Shown here: one piece after another, positions 51,510 through 60,173 of the stretch
Position numbering within the stretch: position 1 is the stretch's first letter
Layout of the letters: each line of letters opens with the position of its first letter
Assembly (NCBI GenBank): GCA_903952145.1
Contig: CAJBES010000222.1
Location: 1-60,552 of the forward strand
From: an uncultured Opitutaceae bacterium
Lineage (GTDB): Bacteria > Verrucomicrobiota > Verrucomicrobiia > Opitutales > Opitutaceae
Length of the DNA stretch: 60,552 nucleotides
Reading direction: 5' to 3'
Program-made: the position numbers and the translations under genes
The notes under the pieces: model-generated
What the model saw: only the letters and a program-made list of their open reading frames with translations
What the model was told of the DNA's origin: nothing
The model's database searches: none

Positions 51510-53855
51510 CTAGCGAAGCCGGGCCGCTTGGTCGACCAAGGTGAGAAACTCGCTGCGGTAGCCGCCGGCATCGTCCTCCAACCCGGCCAGGGCCCAGGCG
51601 GTCACGTCACCGCAGGTCGTCGTGCCCTTGTACTCAGAGTCGCGCAACAGCATCCCAAAGCCGGCCACGGCGGCGGCGAACTTAAAGTCCGCGCTCGCCC
51701 CGGCAAAGCTCGCGCCGCGGTCCTTGAGCGGAAACTCCTGTTTCCGGCTCAACTCGCCCGCGGGGTCCTTGTAGCGCACTTTAACCGTCAGCATCTCGCC
51801 CCGGCCGGCTCCCTGCTCCCGGCTCCCCGCTGCCTGCTCAGTCCGCTGATACTTGAGTGCATCCACACTGCCGGCCGATTCCGGGCACGTCACTCCCATC
51901 GGCACAATTTCATAGATCGCCGTGACGGTGTGCCCCGCGCCGATCTCGCCCGCATCGATGGCATCATTGTTGAAATCCTCTTTCTTCAGCATCCGGTTCT
52001 CGTAGCCGATGAGCCGGTAGGCCTGCACTTCGGCCGGGTTGAACTCAACCTGGATCTTCACGTCCTTGGCGATGGTCACAAGCGTGCCGTTCACCTGCTC
52101 GACGAGCAGTTTCTCCGCCTCGCGCCGCGAATCGATGTAGCCGTAGTGGCCGTTGCCCTTGTCGGCGAGTTGCTCGAGCGTTGCGTCCTTGTAGTTGCCC
52201 ATGCCAAAGCCGAGCACCGTGAGGAATACCCCCGACTTCGCCTTCTCACCGATGAGTCGCGTGAGCTCACCCTCGCTGGTTGTGCCGACATTGAAGTCGC
52301 CGTCCGTGCAAAGGATCACGCGGTTGACGCCGCCCGTCACAAAATTCGCCTTCGTAATATCGTAGGCGAGCTGGATGCCCACCGCGCCGTTGGTCGAACC
52401 GCCCGGCCTCAGTTCATCCAGCACCGCCATGATTTCAGCCGACCGCCGCACCGGCGTCGAAGGCAGTGCCAAGCCTGAATGGCCGGCATAGGTGACGATC
52501 GCCACGCGGTCATCCGCGCGCAGCTTGCCGATGAGCAACCGCAGCGACTCCTTCACCAACGGCAGCTTGTTCGGCTGGTTCATGGAGCCGGACACATCGA
52601 GCAGGAACACGAGGTTGGCGGCCGGTCGCGCCGCGACCGAAACTTCCCGTCCCTTGAGCCCGATCCGCACCAGCCGGTGCCCCGGGGCCCACGGCGCCTC
52701 CGCCACTTCCAGCGCAGCAGCAAAGGGCGCCCCGCCCGTCGGCGCCGCGTAGTGATAGGGGAAATAATTAACCAGTTCCTCGATCCGCACCGCATCCACT
52801 GGCGGCCGCTGACCCTGGTTGAGGAAACGCCGCACGTTCGCATAACTCGCCGTGTCCACATCGATGGAAAACGTGGAGAGCGGGTTTTGGGTCACGTCCA
52901 GAAAGCCATTTTCCCGCTGATAGGCATAAGCTTCCGTGCGCATCTCCGGCTCCGCCGCGAACGCCAATTGCCTCGCCGCGGCTTCGCCATTTGCACGTGC
53001 AGCATCCCAGATTCCCTTGGCCATTTTCATTTTCCCAGCTTGGACCTCGGCCGGTTGTGAGGACTGCCCAAGCACTGCAACTTGCCCTATCTCCATACCT
53101 ATTTTCGTGGCGGTTGCGGAGTTGGCTTTCAGGTAGCTAAAGTCTTTTTCCCCCCGGACCGCAAAAGGAGCAAGTGCTACCACGCCTTCTTCGGTCATGG
53201 CACCACCAAGGGGGGCAGCAGCCGCACTTTCCTTGGTGGGCACCGCAGCACCCAAGGGAACCTGCTGCACGGCCATCCGCCCGGCAACCCGGTGCTCCGC
53301 CACGGCATCCGCCGCAGAAATCTGCATCTGGCCGGCCACGCTCACCATCGCGGGCGCAACCTGGGCCGGCGCCCCTGCCCGCATGAGCCCGGCACTGCCG
53401 TTTGCGTCCCTTGCCTGCATCGGTTCTGCAGCTGCGACTGGCGAAGGGGCCTGCACCATGGCTTTCTGGTCGGTCGACGCTCCCGCGGATAATATTCCCT
53501 CTGCATGCTTCTTCAGCTTTGCCTGCTCGGTTACCTTCGGCTCGTGTAACACCACCAGCACCGTGAGGCACGCGGCCGCCAGTGTCCCCACCGCGTAGTA
53601 AAATTTCGGAAAATGCAGCAGGCGGCCAAGACTCCGCCGCCGGGGCCGGGCCGGCAGGGCAACCTCTGGCATTGTCTCTCCGGCCAACGCCTGTTCAATC
53701 TGCGTCCCCATGGTGCGAATCGCCTCCACCATGGTGCGCGCCGCGGGGTCGTCGCGCAGCCGGGCCTCGACCTCGGCCCGCTCAACTGCGTCGAGTTCAC
53801 CCAGTGCGTAGGCGGTGAGTTTCGGATCATCGGGGGTGAAATGCGGTGCGTTCAT
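51510..53855 (-). CDS. VWA-domain protein with anti-sigma-like N-terminus (YfbK/DUF3520 family)
   Basis: 781 residues. The first ~60 (KLTAYALGELDAVERAEVEARLRDD) look like the cytoplasmic part of anti-sigma factors, and one membrane helix follows (about 84-103). An Ala-rich periplasmic linker precedes a von Willebrand N-terminal domain (about 310-390) and the VWA domain (about 405-590; metal-site NLVFLLDVSGSMN and the second site DGDFNVG). DUF3520 closes the protein. It lies directly downstream of an ECF sigma gene, 8 bases away, so it is likely both the anti-sigma factor and a metal-dependent adhesion-type sensor (inference). Confidence 0.88.
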   Translation of the reverse strand: MNAPHFTPDDPKLTAYALGELDAVERAEVEARLRDDPAARTMVEAIRTMGTQIEQALAGETMPEVALPARPRRRSLGRLLHFPKFYYAVGTLAAACLTVLVVLHEPKVTEQAKLKKHAEGILSAGASTDQKAMVQAPSPVAAAEPMQARDANGSAGLMRAGAPAQVAPAMVSVAGQMQISAADAVAEHRVAGRMAVQQVPLGAAVPTKESAAAAPLGGAMTEEGVVALAPFAVRGEKDFSYLKANSATATKIGMEIGQVAVLGQSSQPAEVQAGKMKMAKGIWDAARANGEAAARQLAFAAEPEMRTEAYAYQRENGFLDVTQNPLSTFSIDVDTASYANVRRFLNQGQRPPVDAVRIEELVNYFPYHYAAPTGGAPFAAALEVAEAPWAPGHRLVRIGLKGREVSVAARPAANLVFLLDVSGSMNQPNKLPLVKESLRLLIGKLRADDRVAIVTYAGHSGLALPSTPVRRSAEIMAVLDELRPGGSTNGAVGIQLAYDITKANFVTGGVNRVILCTDGDFNVGTTSEGELTRLIGEKAKSGVFLTVLGFGMGNYKDATLEQLADKGNGHYGYIDSRREAEKLLVEQVNGTLVTIAKDVKIQVEFNPAEVQAYRLIGYENRMLKKEDFNNDAIDAGEIGAGHTVTAIYEIVPMGVTCPESAGSVDALKYQRTEQAAGSREQGAGRGEMLTVKVRYKDPAGELSRKQEFPLKDRGASFAGASADFKFAAAVAGFGMLLRDSEYKGTTTCGDVTAWALAGLEDDAGGYRSEFLTLVDQAARLR

Positions 53856-53863
53856 GGGTGTCC

Positions 53864-54403
53864 TTACGGCCGCTGGGCGGCGAATTCCGTGCGCAGTCGC
53901 GCCACGGCGGTGTGAATGATGAAACCGACATTGCTCACCGACAGTGCGGTGATGCGGCTGATTTCCTTGTAGCTGAAACCGTTTTGAAACTTGAGCCGCA
54001 CGACCTCCTGTTGATTGGGCGGCAATTGCCCGATGAGCTGCAACAGGGCGGCCTGGATTTCGGCCGCTTCGACGGCGTGGCCCGGCCTCGGCTCGTGCGC
54101 GGTTACCCGCTCCGCTTCACCATCCTCAAACCGCTTCATGCGGCCCTCCTTGCGCAGCACATCCAGCGCGCGGTGCCGGCAGACGGTGTAGAGCCATTCC
54201 GCAAGGTGCCCCTCCACCGCCGCCCGGGGCTGCGCCAGGAGTTTGACAAAAGTGTCCTGCACCATGTCGCGCGCCCGGTCGGGGTCCCCGAGCAGCTTCG
54301 CAGCGTAGCGGGTGAGCGGAGCCTGGTGCTCCGCGAAGGTGCGTTCCAAGAAAATGGCGTCTTCATCCTGTGTGTCCCGTCCTGTCGGGTGCTCGGTGGG
54401 CAT
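53864..54403 (-). CDS. ECF-type RNA polymerase sigma factor
   Basis: 179 residues from ATG 54403. Region 2 is DRARDMVQDTFVKLL, with LYTVCRHRALDVLRKEGR; region 4 HTH is LPPNQQEVVRLKFQNGFSYKEISRITALSVSNVGFII. It belongs to the group of sigma factors paired with VWA/YfbK-type proteins in Planctomycetes and Verrucomicrobia. The frame is open upstream to 54592, but that part is not conserved and carries the 54433 hairpin, so the ATG is chosen. The VWA gene follows in the same operon. Confidence 0.9.
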   Translation of the reverse strand: MPTEHPTGRDTQDEDAIFLERTFAEHQAPLTRYAAKLLGDPDRARDMVQDTFVKLLAQPRAAVEGHLAEWLYTVCRHRALDVLRKEGRMKRFEDGEAERVTAHEPRPGHAVEAAEIQAALLQLIGQLPPNQQEVVRLKFQNGFSYKEISRITALSVSNVGFIIHTAVARLRTEFAAQRP

Positions 54404-54458: not shown

Positions 54459-54655
54459 GACAATGGTCGCTCAGGCAACGCCGGCCTTTTCTGCCCCGGA
54501 TTTCCCAAATCCCCGCTTGCCAGCTTCACTGCCACCGCTTTTTGTTCCGCTCGAACCCAGCCCGCCCTATGCTGCACCGCGACTCCTCCCATTTCATCCT
54601 CGTCGCCACCACGGGCTGCCCGAACCTCTGAACGAAGTTCCAGCCCGCGCCAACC

Positions 54656-54725
54656 GAGCGGGCCCCACGGTTAAACACGCTGTTTTCCCCCGACCCGCTC
54701 ACCACCGAGCGGGTTTTCTCTTTTT
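54656..54725 (+). promoter_or_regulatory. Attenuator-like leader before the ABC exporter genes
   Basis: Three complementary segments lie in the leader: GAGCGGG (54656-54662), CCCGCTC (54694-54700), and GAGCGGG again (54707-54713). The middle one can pair with either neighbour. Pairing with the third gives an 8-bp stem followed by TTTTCTCTTTTT, a Rho-independent terminator ending 21 bases before the ATG of the exporter; pairing with the first would prevent it. A 20-codon open frame (54569-54631) precedes it and could be a leader peptide, but has no clear ribosome-binding site. The ~340-base gap holds nothing else that I recognise. Confidence 0.5.
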
Positions 54726-54745
54726 CAGACCCCATTCCCTTTTTC

Positions 54746-56590
54746 ATGTTTTCCCAAGTCCAAGTCATCTGGTTCCTCATGCGCGGCCACCGTCTGCGTT
54801 ACGGGTCCGCGCTGGGCTGCCTGGTGCTGGCCACGATCATTAACTTCGGCATTCCACTCATCGGTAGTGCCACCATTGACTACGCCGTCGCGGGTAAGAC
54901 TCTCGCCCCGGACACCCCGGTGCTCCTCACCCTCATCCTGCACCTGTTTGGCGGCGCCGATCACCTGCGCGCCCACCTCTGGCTCGCGCCGGTGGCCATG
55001 GTCCTGCTCGCCGCGTTCAGCGGCCTTTTCAGCTACCTCAAGGGCTGGCAGGCCGCGCTCGCCAGCGACGGCATCGCCCGCCGCCTCAAGGATGAGCTCT
55101 ATGACCACCTCAACCACCTGCCCGCGCGTTACCACGACCGCACCGACACCGGCGATCTCGTCCAACGCTGCACCAGCGACGTCGAGACCACCCGCCAATT
55201 TCTCGCCACGCAGGTGATGGAAATCGGCAACGCCATCTTCCTCGCGGGCGCCGCGCTGCCGCTGCTCCTCTCGCTCAGCGTGCCCATGACCCTCGTGTCC
55301 TTCGCCCTCATCGGCCCCATCGCCATCTACGCCTACTTTTACTTCCGCAGCGTGAAACACGTCTTCAAGGAGGTGGACGAAGCCGAGGGCGCACTCACCG
55401 CCGTGATCCAGGAGAATCTCACCGGCATCCGGGTCGTGCGCGCTTTTGCGCGACAGGATTTCGAGCGCGCCAAATTCGCCGTCCCCAACGCCCGCTACCG
55501 CGACCGCAGCCTGCGCATGCTCCGACTCATGTCCTGGTATTGGTCAATCAGTGACTTCGTGGCGCTCACCCAGATCGGCCTGACCCTGCTCGTCGGCGCC
55601 TGGTGGATCACCCAGGGCACTTTCTCCGTCGGCCTGCTCTTCGCCTTCATCTCCTATCTTGGCATCATGCTCTGGCCGGTGCGCCAGATGGGGCGCATCC
55701 TCACCGATCTCGGCAAGACCACCGTCGCGCTCACCCGCATCCGCGAAATCCTCGCTGTCGCCCGCGACTCCGAACCGGCGGTTACGCCCCACCTTCCGGG
55801 GTCATCGTTCACCGGCCGCATTGCCGTGCGTGACCTGCATTTTCATCACGCCAGCGCCACGCTCCCCACAGACGGACGCGGCGCCCTGAATGGCCTCTCC
55901 TTCGACGTCCATTCCGGCGAAACACTCGCCCTGCTTGGTCCCTCGGGCGCGGGCAAAAGCACCCTGATGCACCTGCTGTTGCGGCTCTACGACTACACGC
56001 AGGGTTCGATCCAGTTCGACGGCCACGAACTCTCCTCGCTGCCGCGCCAGTGGGTCCGGGCCCGGATCGGCGTCGTCATGCAGGAACCGTTTCTCTTTTC
56101 CAAGACCCTCCGCGACAATCTCCGCCTCGGCGGTGGCGATGCGCCCGACCCCGAGATCGAGGCCGCCGCCCGCGCCGCCTGCATCCACGATACCATTCTC
56201 ACCTTCAAACACGGCTACAACACCCTCATCGGCGAACGCGGCATCACTCTTTCCGGGGGCCAGCGCCAGCGCGTCGCCATCGCCCGCGCCATCCTCAAGC
56301 GCCCGCCGCTCCTCATCCTCGACGATGCCATGAGCGCGATTGATGCCGAGACCGAGACCCTCATCCTGAACGCGCTCAAGGAACGTCGCGGTCGCGCCAC
56401 CACCCTGGTCATCGCCCACCGGCTCTCGACCCTCGTCCACGCCGACCGCGTGCTCGTGCTCGACCACGGCCGCATCATCCAAACCGGCACCCACGCCGAG
56501 CTCTCGGCCCAGGCAGGCCTCTACCGTCGCCTCTGGCAGATCCAGACCAGTCTGGAGACGGACCTGCAATCGGAACTCAAAGCTACCTGA
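54746..56590 (+). CDS. ABC exporter half-transporter with degenerate catalytic site
   Basis: 614 residues: six membrane helices (about 10-320) and an ATPase domain (about 345-610). Walker A is LGPSGAGKSTLMHLL, the Q-loop VMQEPFLFSKT, the signature [14 protein letters not shown], Walker B LLILDDAMSAID, the switch His in IAHRLSTLV. The catalytic Glu after Walker B is Asp (LDDAMS), as in the degenerate site of heterodimeric exporters such as BmrC or TM287. Its partner is the next gene, 54 bases downstream. The likely cargo is a drug, lipid or peptide. Confidence 0.92.
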   Translation: MFSQVQVIWFLMRGHRLRYGSALGCLVLATIINFGIPLIGSATIDYAVAGKTLAPDTPVLLTLILHLFGGADHLRAHLWLAPVAMVLLAAFSGLFSYLKGWQAALASDGIARRLKDELYDHLNHLPARYHDRTDTGDLVQRCTSDVETTRQFLATQVMEIGNAIFLAGAALPLLLSLSVPMTLVSFALIGPIAIYAYFYFRSVKHVFKEVDEAEGALTAVIQENLTGIRVVRAFARQDFERAKFAVPNARYRDRSLRMLRLMSWYWSISDFVALTQIGLTLLVGAWWITQGTFSVGLLFAFISYLGIMLWPVRQMGRILTDLGKTTVALTRIREILAVARDSEPAVTPHLPGSSFTGRIAVRDLHFHHASATLPTDGRGALNGLSFDVHSGETLALLGPSGAGKSTLMHLLLRLYDYTQGSIQFDGHELSSLPRQWVRARIGVVMQEPFLFSKTLRDNLRLGGGDAPDPEIEAAARAACIHDTILTFKHGYNTLIGERGITLSGGQRQRVAIARAILKRPPLLILDDAMSAIDAETETLILNALKERRGRATTLVIAHRLSTLVHADRVLVLDHGRIIQTGTHAELSAQAGLYRRLWQIQTSLETDLQSELKAT

Positions 56591-56644
56591 GCCAGCACCC
56601 GCCCCGGTTTTAACCTTAAGCACCAGTCCTTGGCGCCTTTTCCC

Positions 56645-58507
56645 ATGCCCGCCCAATTTCTGCAGGAAGACGACTTCAAGGCCCGCCTCGACGCCGGGCT
56701 GTGGTGGAGAATTTTCCTCCGCGCCCTGCACCTGAAGCGCTACCTCATTCCTCTTGCCATCGCCGCCGTGATCATCGCCGTTTGCGACGCCGCCTTCGCC
56801 CTCGTCACGCGCTGGGTCATCGACGGCGTAATACTCCAAGGCTCCGCCGCCCCCTTCGACCGCTACATCGCGGTTTATCTCACCCTCACCGTCCTGCTGT
56901 GCGCCGGCATCTGGCTGTTCATCGACATGGCGGGCAACATCTCCAACCGTCTCGCCCACGACATCCGACGCGACTGCTTCGACCGCCTGCAGCAGCTTGA
57001 ATTCGCCTTCTTCGACACCCGCCCGGTGGGCTGGCTCATCACACGCCTCACCAGCGACTGCGACCGTCTGGCCCGCATCATTTCCTGGGGGTTCCTCGAT
57101 ATCGTCTGGGGCCTGACCTTTCTTTTCATGATCGCCGTGTGCCTGCTGATCATGAACTGGAAGCTCGGGCTCATCGTCATCGCCATCGTGCCGCCGCTCG
57201 CGGTCATCTCGAGGTTTTTTCAAAAAAGGATGCTGCTCAGCGCACGCGAAATTCGGAAATTCAATTCCCAGATCACCGCCGGTTACAACGAGTCCATCTC
57301 GGGTGTCCGCACGACCAAGACCCTCGTCCGCGAGGCCGAAAATCTCGCCGAGTTCCGGCAGCTTTCCGCGCATATGTTTGGCGCCTCGGTGCTCAACGCC
57401 CGCCAGAACGCCCTCTACTACCCCATCGTCACCACCCTCGGCAGCCTCGCCGCCGGCCTCGCGCTCTGGCGCGGCGGCTGGCTCACCCTCAACGACGGCC
57501 TCACCCTTGGCACACTCGTCGCCTTCGTGAATTTCGCCGGCATGTTTTTCAATCCCATCAACTCGCTGGCGCAAAAGCTCACCGAAATGCAGGGGGCCCA
57601 GGCCGCCGGCGAGCGCGTCATGGGCCTGCTGGCCACCGAACCCGCCATCAAGGATACCCCCACGGTGATGGCCCGCCTCGCCCATGACCACTCGGCCGAT
57701 CCGTCCCTGGGGCAGGACGGCTTCCCCCGGAAAATCGACACCATCGAGTTTCGCCATGTAGCCTTCCACTACGAGAGTGGCCCGGTCGTGTTGCACGACC
57801 TCAATCTCACCGTCAACGCCGGCGAGACCATCGCCCTCGTCGGCCCTTCCGGCGGCGGCAAGAGCACCATCGTCTCCCTCGTCTGCCGCTTCTACGAACC
57901 CGTTTCCGGTCAGATCCTCATCAACGGCACGGACTACCGTGAACGTTCGCTCGCCTGGCTGCAATCGCAGCTCGGGATTGTCCTGCAGACGCCGCACCTC
58001 TTCAAGGGCACCATCCGCGAAAACATCCGCTATGGCCGGCTCGACGCCACCGATGCCGAGGTCGAGACCGCCGCCCGATTGGTCAACGCCCACGAGTTCA
58101 TCACGCAGCTGGAGGCCGGCTACGACTCGCCGGTCGGTGAGGGCGGCAACCGCCTCTCCACCGGCCAGCGCCAGTTGCTCTCCTTCGCCCGCGCCCTGCT
58201 GGCGAACCCGCAGCTCTTCGTCATGGACGAGGCCACCTCGTCCATCGACACCGAAACCGAACAGCTCATCCAGCGCGGACTTGAAACCATCTTCTCGGGC
58301 CGCATCAGCTTTGTCATCGCCCACCGGCTCAGCACCATCCGCCGCGCCGACCGCATTCTCGTCATCACCCAGGGCCGCATTGAGGAATCCGGCACGCACG
58401 AGGAACTGCTCCTCCGCCGCGGCCACTACTACGAACTCTACACAAGCCAGTTCCGCCGCGAGCGCGAGGAAGCCGTGCTCGAAGCCAGTGCCGGTGAAAC
58501 CCGTTAG
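56645..58507 (+). CDS. ABC exporter half-transporter with consensus catalytic Glu
   Basis: 620 residues from ATG 56645 (a TTG at 56630 is less likely). Six membrane helices (about 25-345), an ATPase with Walker A VGPSGGGKSTIVSLV, and Q-loop VLQTPHLFKGT. The signature is LSTGQRQLLSFARAL, where the second Gly of LSGGQ is absent, and Walker B is LFVMDEATSSID with the catalytic Glu present. The changed signature faces the degenerate Walker site of the partner, exactly as expected for an asymmetric heterodimer. Confidence 0.93.
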   Translation: MPAQFLQEDDFKARLDAGLWWRIFLRALHLKRYLIPLAIAAVIIAVCDAAFALVTRWVIDGVILQGSAAPFDRYIAVYLTLTVLLCAGIWLFIDMAGNISNRLAHDIRRDCFDRLQQLEFAFFDTRPVGWLITRLTSDCDRLARIISWGFLDIVWGLTFLFMIAVCLLIMNWKLGLIVIAIVPPLAVISRFFQKRMLLSAREIRKFNSQITAGYNESISGVRTTKTLVREAENLAEFRQLSAHMFGASVLNARQNALYYPIVTTLGSLAAGLALWRGGWLTLNDGLTLGTLVAFVNFAGMFFNPINSLAQKLTEMQGAQAAGERVMGLLATEPAIKDTPTVMARLAHDHSADPSLGQDGFPRKIDTIEFRHVAFHYESGPVVLHDLNLTVNAGETIALVGPSGGGKSTIVSLVCRFYEPVSGQILINGTDYRERSLAWLQSQLGIVLQTPHLFKGTIRENIRYGRLDATDAEVETAARLVNAHEFITQLEAGYDSPVGEGGNRLSTGQRQLLSFARALLANPQLFVMDEATSSIDTETEQLIQRGLETIFSGRISFVIAHRLSTIRRADRILVITQGRIEESGTHEELLLRRGHYYELYTSQFRREREEAVLEASAGETR

Positions 58508-58568: not shown

Positions 58569-60173
58569 ATGCGCAGACTCCTGCTGATCGTTCCAGTTCT
58601 CTTGTTCATCGGTGGCTGCGCCCGTCGCGAATCGCCCGTAGCCGCCGGCATTCGCACGCAGACCCTGCTTCTGGGCAACGGCGCCGAACCGCAGTCGCTC
58701 GATCCGCACCTCGTCACCGCCTACACCGACCAGAATATCCTGCTCGCGCTCTTCGAGGGGCTTTGCGCGCTCGACGAGCGCACCTCGCAACCCGTGCCGG
58801 CCGCCGCCGAAAGCTGGGAGGTTTCGTCTGGCGGGCTCGTCTACACCTTCCATCTCCGCGCCGGATTAAAATGGGCCAACGGGGAAAAACTCACTGCCAC
58901 CGACTTTGTGTTCGCCTGGCGCCGGGCTCTCGCCCCCACCCTCGGCTCGGAATACTCCTACCTGTTGTACCCGCTGAAAAATGCCGCCGCTTTCAACGCC
59001 GGCACTCTCACCGACCCCGCTGCGCTCGGCTGCGAGGCGCCCGACGCGCACACCCTGCGCCTCACCCTCGAACGCCCCACCCCCTATCTGCCCGCACTGA
59101 CGGCCAACCCGATCTGGTTTCCGCTCAACCCGCGGGTCCTCGCCGCATCGGGACCGGTCGCTGATCGCACCAACGGTTGGGCCAGCCCCGGCACCTTGGT
59201 CGGCAACGGCCCGTTTATCCTGCAGGAGTGGCGGTCCAACGCCCATGTGAAAGTGGTGCGCAATCCGCATTACTGGGACGCCGCCACGGTCCGGCTCAAC
59301 GCCATCGTGTTCTACCCGACCGAGAGTCCTGACACCGAGGAGCGCAACTTCCGTGCCGGCCAGGTGCATGTCACCCACGCCCTGCCTCCCACCAAGCTGG
59401 CAACCTATCGCACCCAGACCCCCACCGCCCTGCGCTTGGATCCGTTCCTCCAAACCGTTTTTTTGCGCTTCAACACCACGCGACCGCCCTTTGACCAACC
59501 CGCCGTCCGCCGCGCCCTGGCCCTTGCCATCGACCGTGCGGCCATCACGCGCAGCGTGCTGCGCGACGCCAATCTGCCCGCCCCGCACTTCACCCCACCC
59601 AACTGCGCCGGTTACACCACCCGGGCCACGGTGGACACCGACTTTGCCGCCGCCCGCGCCCTGCTGGCCACCGCCGGCTATCCGGAGGGCCGCGGCCTGC
59701 CCATCCTCACGCTCCAAATTCGCAATGACGCCCAGCAACCCGGCCTGGCCGAGATCCTGCAGGCGCTCTGGCAGCGGGAACTCGGCGTCCGCCTGGAAAT
59801 CCGCTCCCTCGAACAGAAAACCTGGGTGCAAAACCAGCAGACCCTCGACTACATGATCTCCGGTGCCGGCTGGATCGGAGACTTTGCCGACCCGGTCACG
59901 TTCCTCGACCTCTTCATCAGCACAAGCGGCAATAACTGGACCGGCTGGCACAACGCGGACTATGACCGTCTCATCGCCCAGGCCGCCGCCACCGCCGCCC
60001 CCGCCGCCCGGCTTGAACTCTTCCAGCAGGCCGAAGCGCTTCTGCTCGAATCCGCTCCCATCACCCCGGTGTTTTTCGGGTCCCAAGCCTACCTGCTCCA
60101 CCCCTCCGTCCGCGGCTGGGAGCCCGCCCTGCTCGGCTTCCACCAATACAAAAAGATTTACCTCAAGCAGTAG
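58569..60173 (+). CDS. Oligopeptide-binding lipoprotein (OppA/SBP family 5)
   Basis: 534 residues. A lipoprotein signal peptide ends in a lipobox-like LFIGGCARRE, with Cys at about residue 17. The SBP-5 fold starts NGAEPQSLDPHLV, with GLKWANGEKLTATDFVFAWRRAL and the hinge/peptide-site segments NGPFILQEW and KVVRNPHYWDA. It binds extracellular peptides for an Opp/Dpp-type ABC importer; no importer permease or ATPase is adjacent, so it works with components elsewhere. A tail near FGSQAYLLHPSVRGW is typical. It follows the exporter pair on the same strand, 61 bases away. Confidence 0.93.
   Translation: MRRLLLIVPVLLFIGGCARRESPVAAGIRTQTLLLGNGAEPQSLDPHLVTAYTDQNILLALFEGLCALDERTSQPVPAAAESWEVSSGGLVYTFHLRAGLKWANGEKLTATDFVFAWRRALAPTLGSEYSYLLYPLKNAAAFNAGTLTDPAALGCEAPDAHTLRLTLERPTPYLPALTANPIWFPLNPRVLAASGPVADRTNGWASPGTLVGNGPFILQEWRSNAHVKVVRNPHYWDAATVRLNAIVFYPTESPDTEERNFRAGQVHVTHALPPTKLATYRTQTPTALRLDPFLQTVFLRFNTTRPPFDQPAVRRALALAIDRAAITRSVLRDANLPAPHFTPPNCAGYTTRATVDTDFAAARALLATAGYPEGRGLPILTLQIRNDAQQPGLAEILQALWQRELGVRLEIRSLEQKTWVQNQQTLDYMISGAGWIGDFADPVTFLDLFISTSGNNWTGWHNADYDRLIAQAAATAAPAARLELFQQAEALLLESAPITPVFFGSQAYLLHPSVRGWEPALLGFHQYKKIYLKQ

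Follow-up and report, generated by a model that had tools for sequence, protein, structure and literature searches.

The window, that is the whole 60,552 nucleotide stretch of DNA from an uncultured Opitutaceae bacterium that was analysed, contains a pair of ABC exporter genes and, divergent from these, a gene for an ECF sigma factor. The genes in this part of the window are as follows.

51510 to 53855, minus strand: VWA/YfbK-like gene, after the sigma factor gene
53864 to 54403, minus strand: ECF sigma factor gene, divergent from the exporter operon
54746 to 56590, plus strand: ABC exporter subunit 1, 614 amino acids (Pfam ABC_membrane and ABC_tran; signature LSGGQ; Walker B LILDDAMS)
56630 to 58507, plus strand: ABC exporter subunit 2 (identified through Pfam; signature LSTGQ; Walker B MDEATS)

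A gene for a family 5 solute-binding protein (SBP_bac_5, 58575 to 60173) is found on the same strand, 3' of the exporter pair.

Motif reading of the Walker B of subunit 1 identified an Asp where the catalytic Glu is expected. The exporter is thus of the heterodimeric type with one degenerate ATP site, LSGGQ/DD in subunit 1 and LSTGQ/DE in subunit 2, which agrees with the initial annotation of an asymmetric pair; the asymmetry is of the bmrCD kind. The same motif asymmetry is present in every family orthologue for which both subunits were read, one LSSGQ being found among them. The start codon of subunit 2 is uncertain, with another ATG 15 nt in. The PDB relatives of subunit 1 include YheI (BmrC), and those of subunit 2 include TmrA, TM288, and YheH (BmrD). 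The heterodimeric asymmetric architecture and the relatives BmrC/BmrD, TmrAB, and TM288 suggest that the substrates may be drugs; many relatives of this exporter fold carry substrates other than drugs.

The region between the sigma factor gene and the exporter contains the following elements.

54517 to 54545, plus strand: promoter-like sequence, with -35 TTGCCA (54517 to 54522), a 17 nt spacer, and -10 TTTTGT (54540 to 54545)
54569 to 54631, plus strand: leader ORF of 20 codons and a TGA, MLHRDSSHFILVATTGCPNL, with the ATG at 54569 and the TGA at 54629 to 54631
54612 to 54618, plus strand: S0, CGGGCTG, within the leader ORF, pairing with S1 (91.9% of S0:S1 cells paired in 31 leaders)
54622 to 54640, plus strand: H0, a hairpin round the leader stop codon, nested in S0:S1 (GAAC at 54622 to 54625 with GTTC at 54637 to 54640)
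54641 to 54648, plus strand: S1, CAGCCCGC, partner of S0 or S2, with a GCCCGC core at 54643 to 54648
54656 to 54663, plus strand: S2, GAGCGGGC, partner of S1 (anti-antiterminator) or S3 (antiterminator), its core almost invariant in 31 sequences
54692 to 54700, plus strand: S3, GACCCGCTC, 5' arm of the terminator and 3' arm of the antiterminator, its CCCGCTC core invariant in 31 sequences
54707 to 54725, plus strand: S4, GAGCGGGTT, with a T run, 3' arm of the intrinsic terminator

Direct reading of the sequence recovers the 20 codon open frame that had been noted ahead of the switch and, between this and the exporter, GAGCGGG (54656 to 54662), CCCGCTC (54694 to 54700), and GAGCGGG (54707 to 54713) followed by the T run (54714 to 54725). 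The ATG of the exporter at 54746 is 20 nt beyond the T run. The middle segment does have two possible partners, S3 being common to the S2:S3 antiterminator and the S3:S4 terminator. Of the three-segment switch described in the initial annotation the three segments stand, but not the total; S1, a possible partner of the first GAGCGGG, and S0, which lies in the leader ORF and pairs with S1, had been missed. The five segments S0, S1, S2, S3, and S4 alternate in complementarity, and the switch has at least this many. The predicted intrinsic terminator S3:S4, located between the promoter and the first gene, has a 9 bp stem (54692 to 54700 with 54707 to 54715) of -16.0 kcal/mol. The antiterminator S2:S3 has -10.3 kcal/mol as a bare 7 bp helix and -15.7 kcal/mol with its inner hairpin, S1:S2 has -11.7 kcal/mol, and S0:S1 including the stop-codon hairpin has -13.3 kcal/mol. 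In the window sequence itself the H0 helix is displaced by a few nt.

The ordered triple of 7-mers occurs once in the window and in none of 100 dinucleotide shuffles, and the region 54632 to 54727 folds 3.7 standard deviations better than its shuffles. A looser triple of 5-mers is not rarer in the whole genome than its control, with 68 matches and 98 for the reversed control, therefore the case is carried by comparative evidence rather than by this sequence alone. Rho-independent terminators with AGCGGG arms are also common in these genomes. Together with the loose three-segment pattern, which is not rare, this would fit ordinary or tandem terminators that shield the exporter from upstream transcription and do no switching. 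Such a role is very improbable: the ECF sigma factor gene of the window is divergent, leaving no gene to terminate, S1:S2 does not have a T run, and the leader ORF, the stop-codon hairpin, and the promoter are conserved together, while shuffled leaders lose the logic of the switch.

Transcription is predicted to start at about 54552. The promoter-like sequence corresponds to a motif, CTTGCC[TA]-N17-TTTTCT-CCG, that about 33 orthologous leaders have approximately 50 to 65 nt 5' of their leader ATG; in these CTTGC is invariant, the spacer is N17, and TTTTCT is the majority sequence. A scan for the sigma-70 consensus found no promoter, because the conserved -10 is TTTTCT-like. Lack of a transcription start between about 54460 and 54640 had been named as evidence against a switch, and it is here that the conserved putative promoter lies.

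Orthologues of the exporter membrane half are present in 63 of 252 genomes of the family, and orthologues at 42 to 59% identity are found in other Verrucomicrobiota, Cloacimonadota, Fermentibacteria, Bacillota, and Uabimicrobium. The named orthologous records are Opitutaceae, Cephaloticoccus, and Rariglobus. Approximately 48 distinct orthologous loci from the Opitutaceae and relatives within the Verrucomicrobiota have a leader ORF of 18 to 26 codons and then a terminator. The leader ORFs start and stop at a near-constant distance from the GC-rich terminator, and the stop codon is retained while its identity shifts between TGA, TAG, and TAA. These loci have the switch in common, its sequences often differing among them, and within the main clade the promoter is common too. 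A few leaders, L009, L060, and L053 among them, fit this geometry less well or require a different start codon. No leader was recognisable for about 10 orthologous exporters (L010, L012, L013, L055, L080, L083, L103, L110, L111, and L123). Neither leader nor terminator is recognisable in L010, L103, L110, and L123, where the regulation has apparently been lost or replaced. A GDSL/SGNH-hydrolase-like gene seems to end directly 5' of the exporter in L010, L110, and L123.

Poor conservation of the complementary segments in close relatives, which the initial annotation would have counted against the switch, was not seen; across 31 sequences the segments vary little or not at all. Covariation of the three segments, which it had also proposed as a check, is a different matter, since the count for S2:S3 is no better than in shuffles. 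The S1 to S4 cores hardly vary in the main clade and clear covariation is found only in the flanking pairs of S3:S4. The alternative pairings therefore rest on invariance and on the other clades, not on covariation. For S0:S1/H0 in the 31 leaders, 27 cells are changed on both sides, where shuffled controls have 13.0 (sd 3.4) and slid controls no more than 13, although these are not independent events, the compared sequences sharing ancestry. The covariation score is 0.218, against at most 0.085 in slid controls, and 5 of the 6 aligned pairs of H0 have changes on both sides in the 31 sequences. In L035, S0 and S1 are altered together (GCGGACC with GGTCCGC). The S0:S1 duplex has a mean of -14.4 kcal/mol, compared with -10.45 (sd 0.43) for leaders with synonymous codons, a difference of about 9 standard deviations of the group mean, and the pairing is therefore stronger than the peptide alone predicts. 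A further segment at the beginning of the leader, S-1 (ACCCGC, 'MTR'), was considered as a partner that would sequester S0 and was rejected; this pairing beats shuffles and is no better than synonymous-codon controls, with mixed results in the marine clade.

The leader peptide could itself be the sensor, either of an amino acid or, as a specific arrest peptide, of one metabolite or drug that stalls the ribosome at fixed codons. The sequence LVAxAG recurs in many leaders of one clade, the main clade, and the hydrophobic ILV/FLV stretches of the leaders presumably resemble known arrest peptides. The AG codons are accounted for by S0 pairing, and L042 retains the S0 word, there in a different frame. 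The RNA architecture is also the same in other clades, where the peptides (MKLTVxxNPLLSMRNERF, YSIGRVFRDT) are unrelated. The pN/pS of the leaders is 1.02 (0.86 for codons 2 to 11 and 1.31 for the remaining codons), hence no purifying selection on the leader peptide was detected. A run of a single amino acid, the codon run for a regulated amino acid that marks trp/his/ilv-type attenuators, is absent from the approximately 48 leader peptides. The pN/pS near 1 and the lack of such a run speak against a sensor of amino acids and do not support an arrest peptide under strict conservation, and peptide-specific stalling is considered unlikely.

A covariance model built from the 31 leaders, the window sequence included, matches 54593 to 54723 on the plus strand (E 4.1e-19), and this is the single match in the genome of the window. 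All strong matches in the family (E below 1e-8) are at this exporter. The next-best matches inspected are, besides the exporter leader L150, plain terminators behind ribosomal-protein and other genes. Neither a second genomic copy nor a wider regulon was found in this way. No Rfam family reached the gathering score in the window or in 20 related loci, relaxed thresholds giving weak matches at chance level only. An attenuator of the riboswitch or protein-binding kind, sharing this terminator and with the leader ORF incidental, is very unlikely in light of this, and there is also no conserved aptamer-like core; the conserved upstream elements are the leader ORF, its stop codon, and the stop-codon hairpin. 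In its favour, TTTCCCTCCCATCCC, nearly invariant and unpaired 5' of S3 in the marine clade, could bind a factor.

The ribosome-controlled reading was modelled by folding the leaders with a ribosome at each codon, the first free base being 16 nt past the first base of the P-site codon. The folded transcript ended just after S2, and the calculation is one of equilibrium on partial transcripts. With no ribosome S2 is predicted to be trapped, with a mean probability of 0.98 in the main clade and 0.93 in the other clade. This is reduced to 0.76 to 0.83 and 0.55 to 0.75, respectively, with the P site at codons 1 to 9, and from codon 12 onward is about 1.0 and 0.92 to 1.0. From early to late positions this probability rises by 0.21 and 0.36 in the two clades and by 0.01 for shuffled-codon leaders, so that the predicted dependence on ribosome position is lost on shuffling. 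Equilibrium folding of S2 against S3 alone gives an unclear pattern; whether S2 is trapped before S3 is made is the more informative question. For the complete leader at equilibrium the terminator is moderately favoured (probability 0.4 to 0.7), and as the predicted swing is partial the outcome hinges on kinetics.

The conserved leader ORF and segments, the S0:S1/H0 covariation, and the ribosome-position folding support the bmrCD-like ribosome-mediated switch that had been suggested. The analysis shows the sequences, their conservation and covariation, and the thermodynamic logic of the pairings; promoter activity, leader translation, termination, the direction of the response, the inducer, and the substrate are inferred. 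The element is likely to attenuate transcription of the ABC exporter operon downstream of it under ribosome control, and it probably turns the exporter on upon early ribosome stalling, for example under ribosome-blocking drugs. RNA polymerase would start near 54552 and make the leader ORF, then S1, S2, S3, and S4 in order. If the leader were completed promptly, the ribosome would cover S0, S1 would trap S2, and S3:S4 would form, with termination near 54725. If the ribosome were halted in approximately the first 9 to 11 codons, S0:S1 would form round the stop codon and S2 would be freed to take S3 before S4 is made, giving read-through into the exporter. In an untranslated leader S2 would mostly be trapped by upstream RNA, which would make off the default. 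The sensed quantity would be the progress of the ribosome, the peptide sequence being of little weight, and the best fit is a sensor of early ribosome stalling in general. Whatever halts ribosomes early may be the natural signal; antibiotics that target the ribosome, and in whose removal the exporter would assist directly or indirectly, are the most likely candidates.

Leaders of the divergent marine clade use different words, CGAGC..GCTTC with GAAGGCTCG and GGCTCG with CGGGCC. For most members, pairing of the post-stop segment to both the end of the leader and S2 exceeds that in shuffles, while formal covariation is weak in an alignment of only eight sequences. The near-invariant unpaired TTTCCCTCCCATCCC is just 5' of S3 in leaders L112, L115-L122, L015, L016, L124, and L125 (alignment A2), where it could be a pause signal, a protein site, or a pairing partner. 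Two reduced leaders, L011 and L058, have three segments, and S1:S2 itself bears the T run, approximately 70 to 150 nt 5' of the exporter match. These have the same predicted direction, with the change around codons 8 to 11.

Leader ORFs with a competing antiterminator and terminator are also found at orthologues of 43 to 47% identity in the Cloacimonadota, Fermentibacteria, and Bacillota. These ORFs have about 24 to 47 codons (L085, L087, L090, L093, L086, L091, L092, L096, L099, and L094), and in several the end of the leader, for example at RPV or RPRFI codons, complements the Shine-Dalgarno region of the leader (AGGAGGTCGTG or CGGATGGAGG). They have a single antiterminator segment at the ORF end and the same predicted direction: the upstream RNA takes the terminator arm with the ribosome early and loses it with the ribosome near the stop. 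Their no-ribosome state is mixed, and L096 and L099 lose the terminator arm only partly. The independent origin proposed in the initial annotation is not established, because these distant orthologues also carry leader attenuators; the leader switches may have arisen by common descent or by repeated evolution. Tentatively, they could form a class of attenuator in which the number of segments may vary (three or five) but stays odd, which would keep the logic: an early halt gives read-through and a ribosome near the stop gives termination. In such a class the peptide would be nearly free to drift and early stalling in general would be sensed, and its members would accompany a single ancient line of heterodimeric ABC exporters in several phyla.

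In B. subtilis, chloramphenicol, erythromycin, and lincomycin induce bmrCD by way of the translated leader bmrB (PMC4191407). The Opitutaceae locus shares with bmrB-bmrCD a heterodimeric multidrug-type ABC exporter, a leader peptide, and a terminator, antiterminator, and anti-antiterminator, here predicted, as well as read-through upon slower leader translation, here predicted by folding. By analogy, ribosome-blocking compounds may induce the Opitutaceae exporter. The bmrCD terminator is inside the leader coding region (bmrB, 162 nt), whereas that of the Opitutaceae locus is outside the 20 codon leader, S3 lying about 60 nt past the leader stop codon and beginning 65 nt beyond the first base of that codon. 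The S0:S1 hairpin round the stop codon is an addition relative to bmrCD, and the phylum is different. A terminator, antiterminator, and anti-antiterminator are likewise predicted before the patAB ABC exporter operon of Streptococcus pneumoniae, where terminator mutations raise expression (PMC4319486); this is again a different phylum and, unlike here, no leader peptide was reported. As in trp-type attenuators (PMC1183508), the segments alternate, the first is in the leader ORF, and the last pair is the intrinsic terminator. Unlike these, the Opitutaceae leader does not have regulatory codons for one amino acid, and it has one more segment, with early stalling predicted to free S2 through S0:S1. 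The toiL uORF of E. coli topAI senses several drug classes, with stalls at different codons including the start codon (PMC12121999). Induction by stalls at several places in a short ORF is predicted for the Opitutaceae leader too, however toiL controls ribosome-binding-site access and Rho termination rather than an intrinsic terminator. Predicted 'ABC-leaders' are also attenuators before ABC transporter operons, among them that of a multidrug exporter of lactobacilli (PMC2965389); neither Verrucomicrobia nor Opitutus appears in that general attenuator survey. No description of a leader-peptide attenuator in the Verrucomicrobiota came up in the literature searches, which is not proof of absence.

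Within the literature searched, experiments in Bacillus subtilis document the attenuation of a multidrug ABC exporter through a leader peptide (PMC4191407). If the reading given here is true, the poorly studied Verrucomicrobiota would have a drug-responsive RNA regulator, and the element would be a marker of exporters that face ribosome-blocking compounds. The leaders, with varied sequences, three or five segments, and the same predicted direction, would then also be a natural series for testing the design rules of attenuators.
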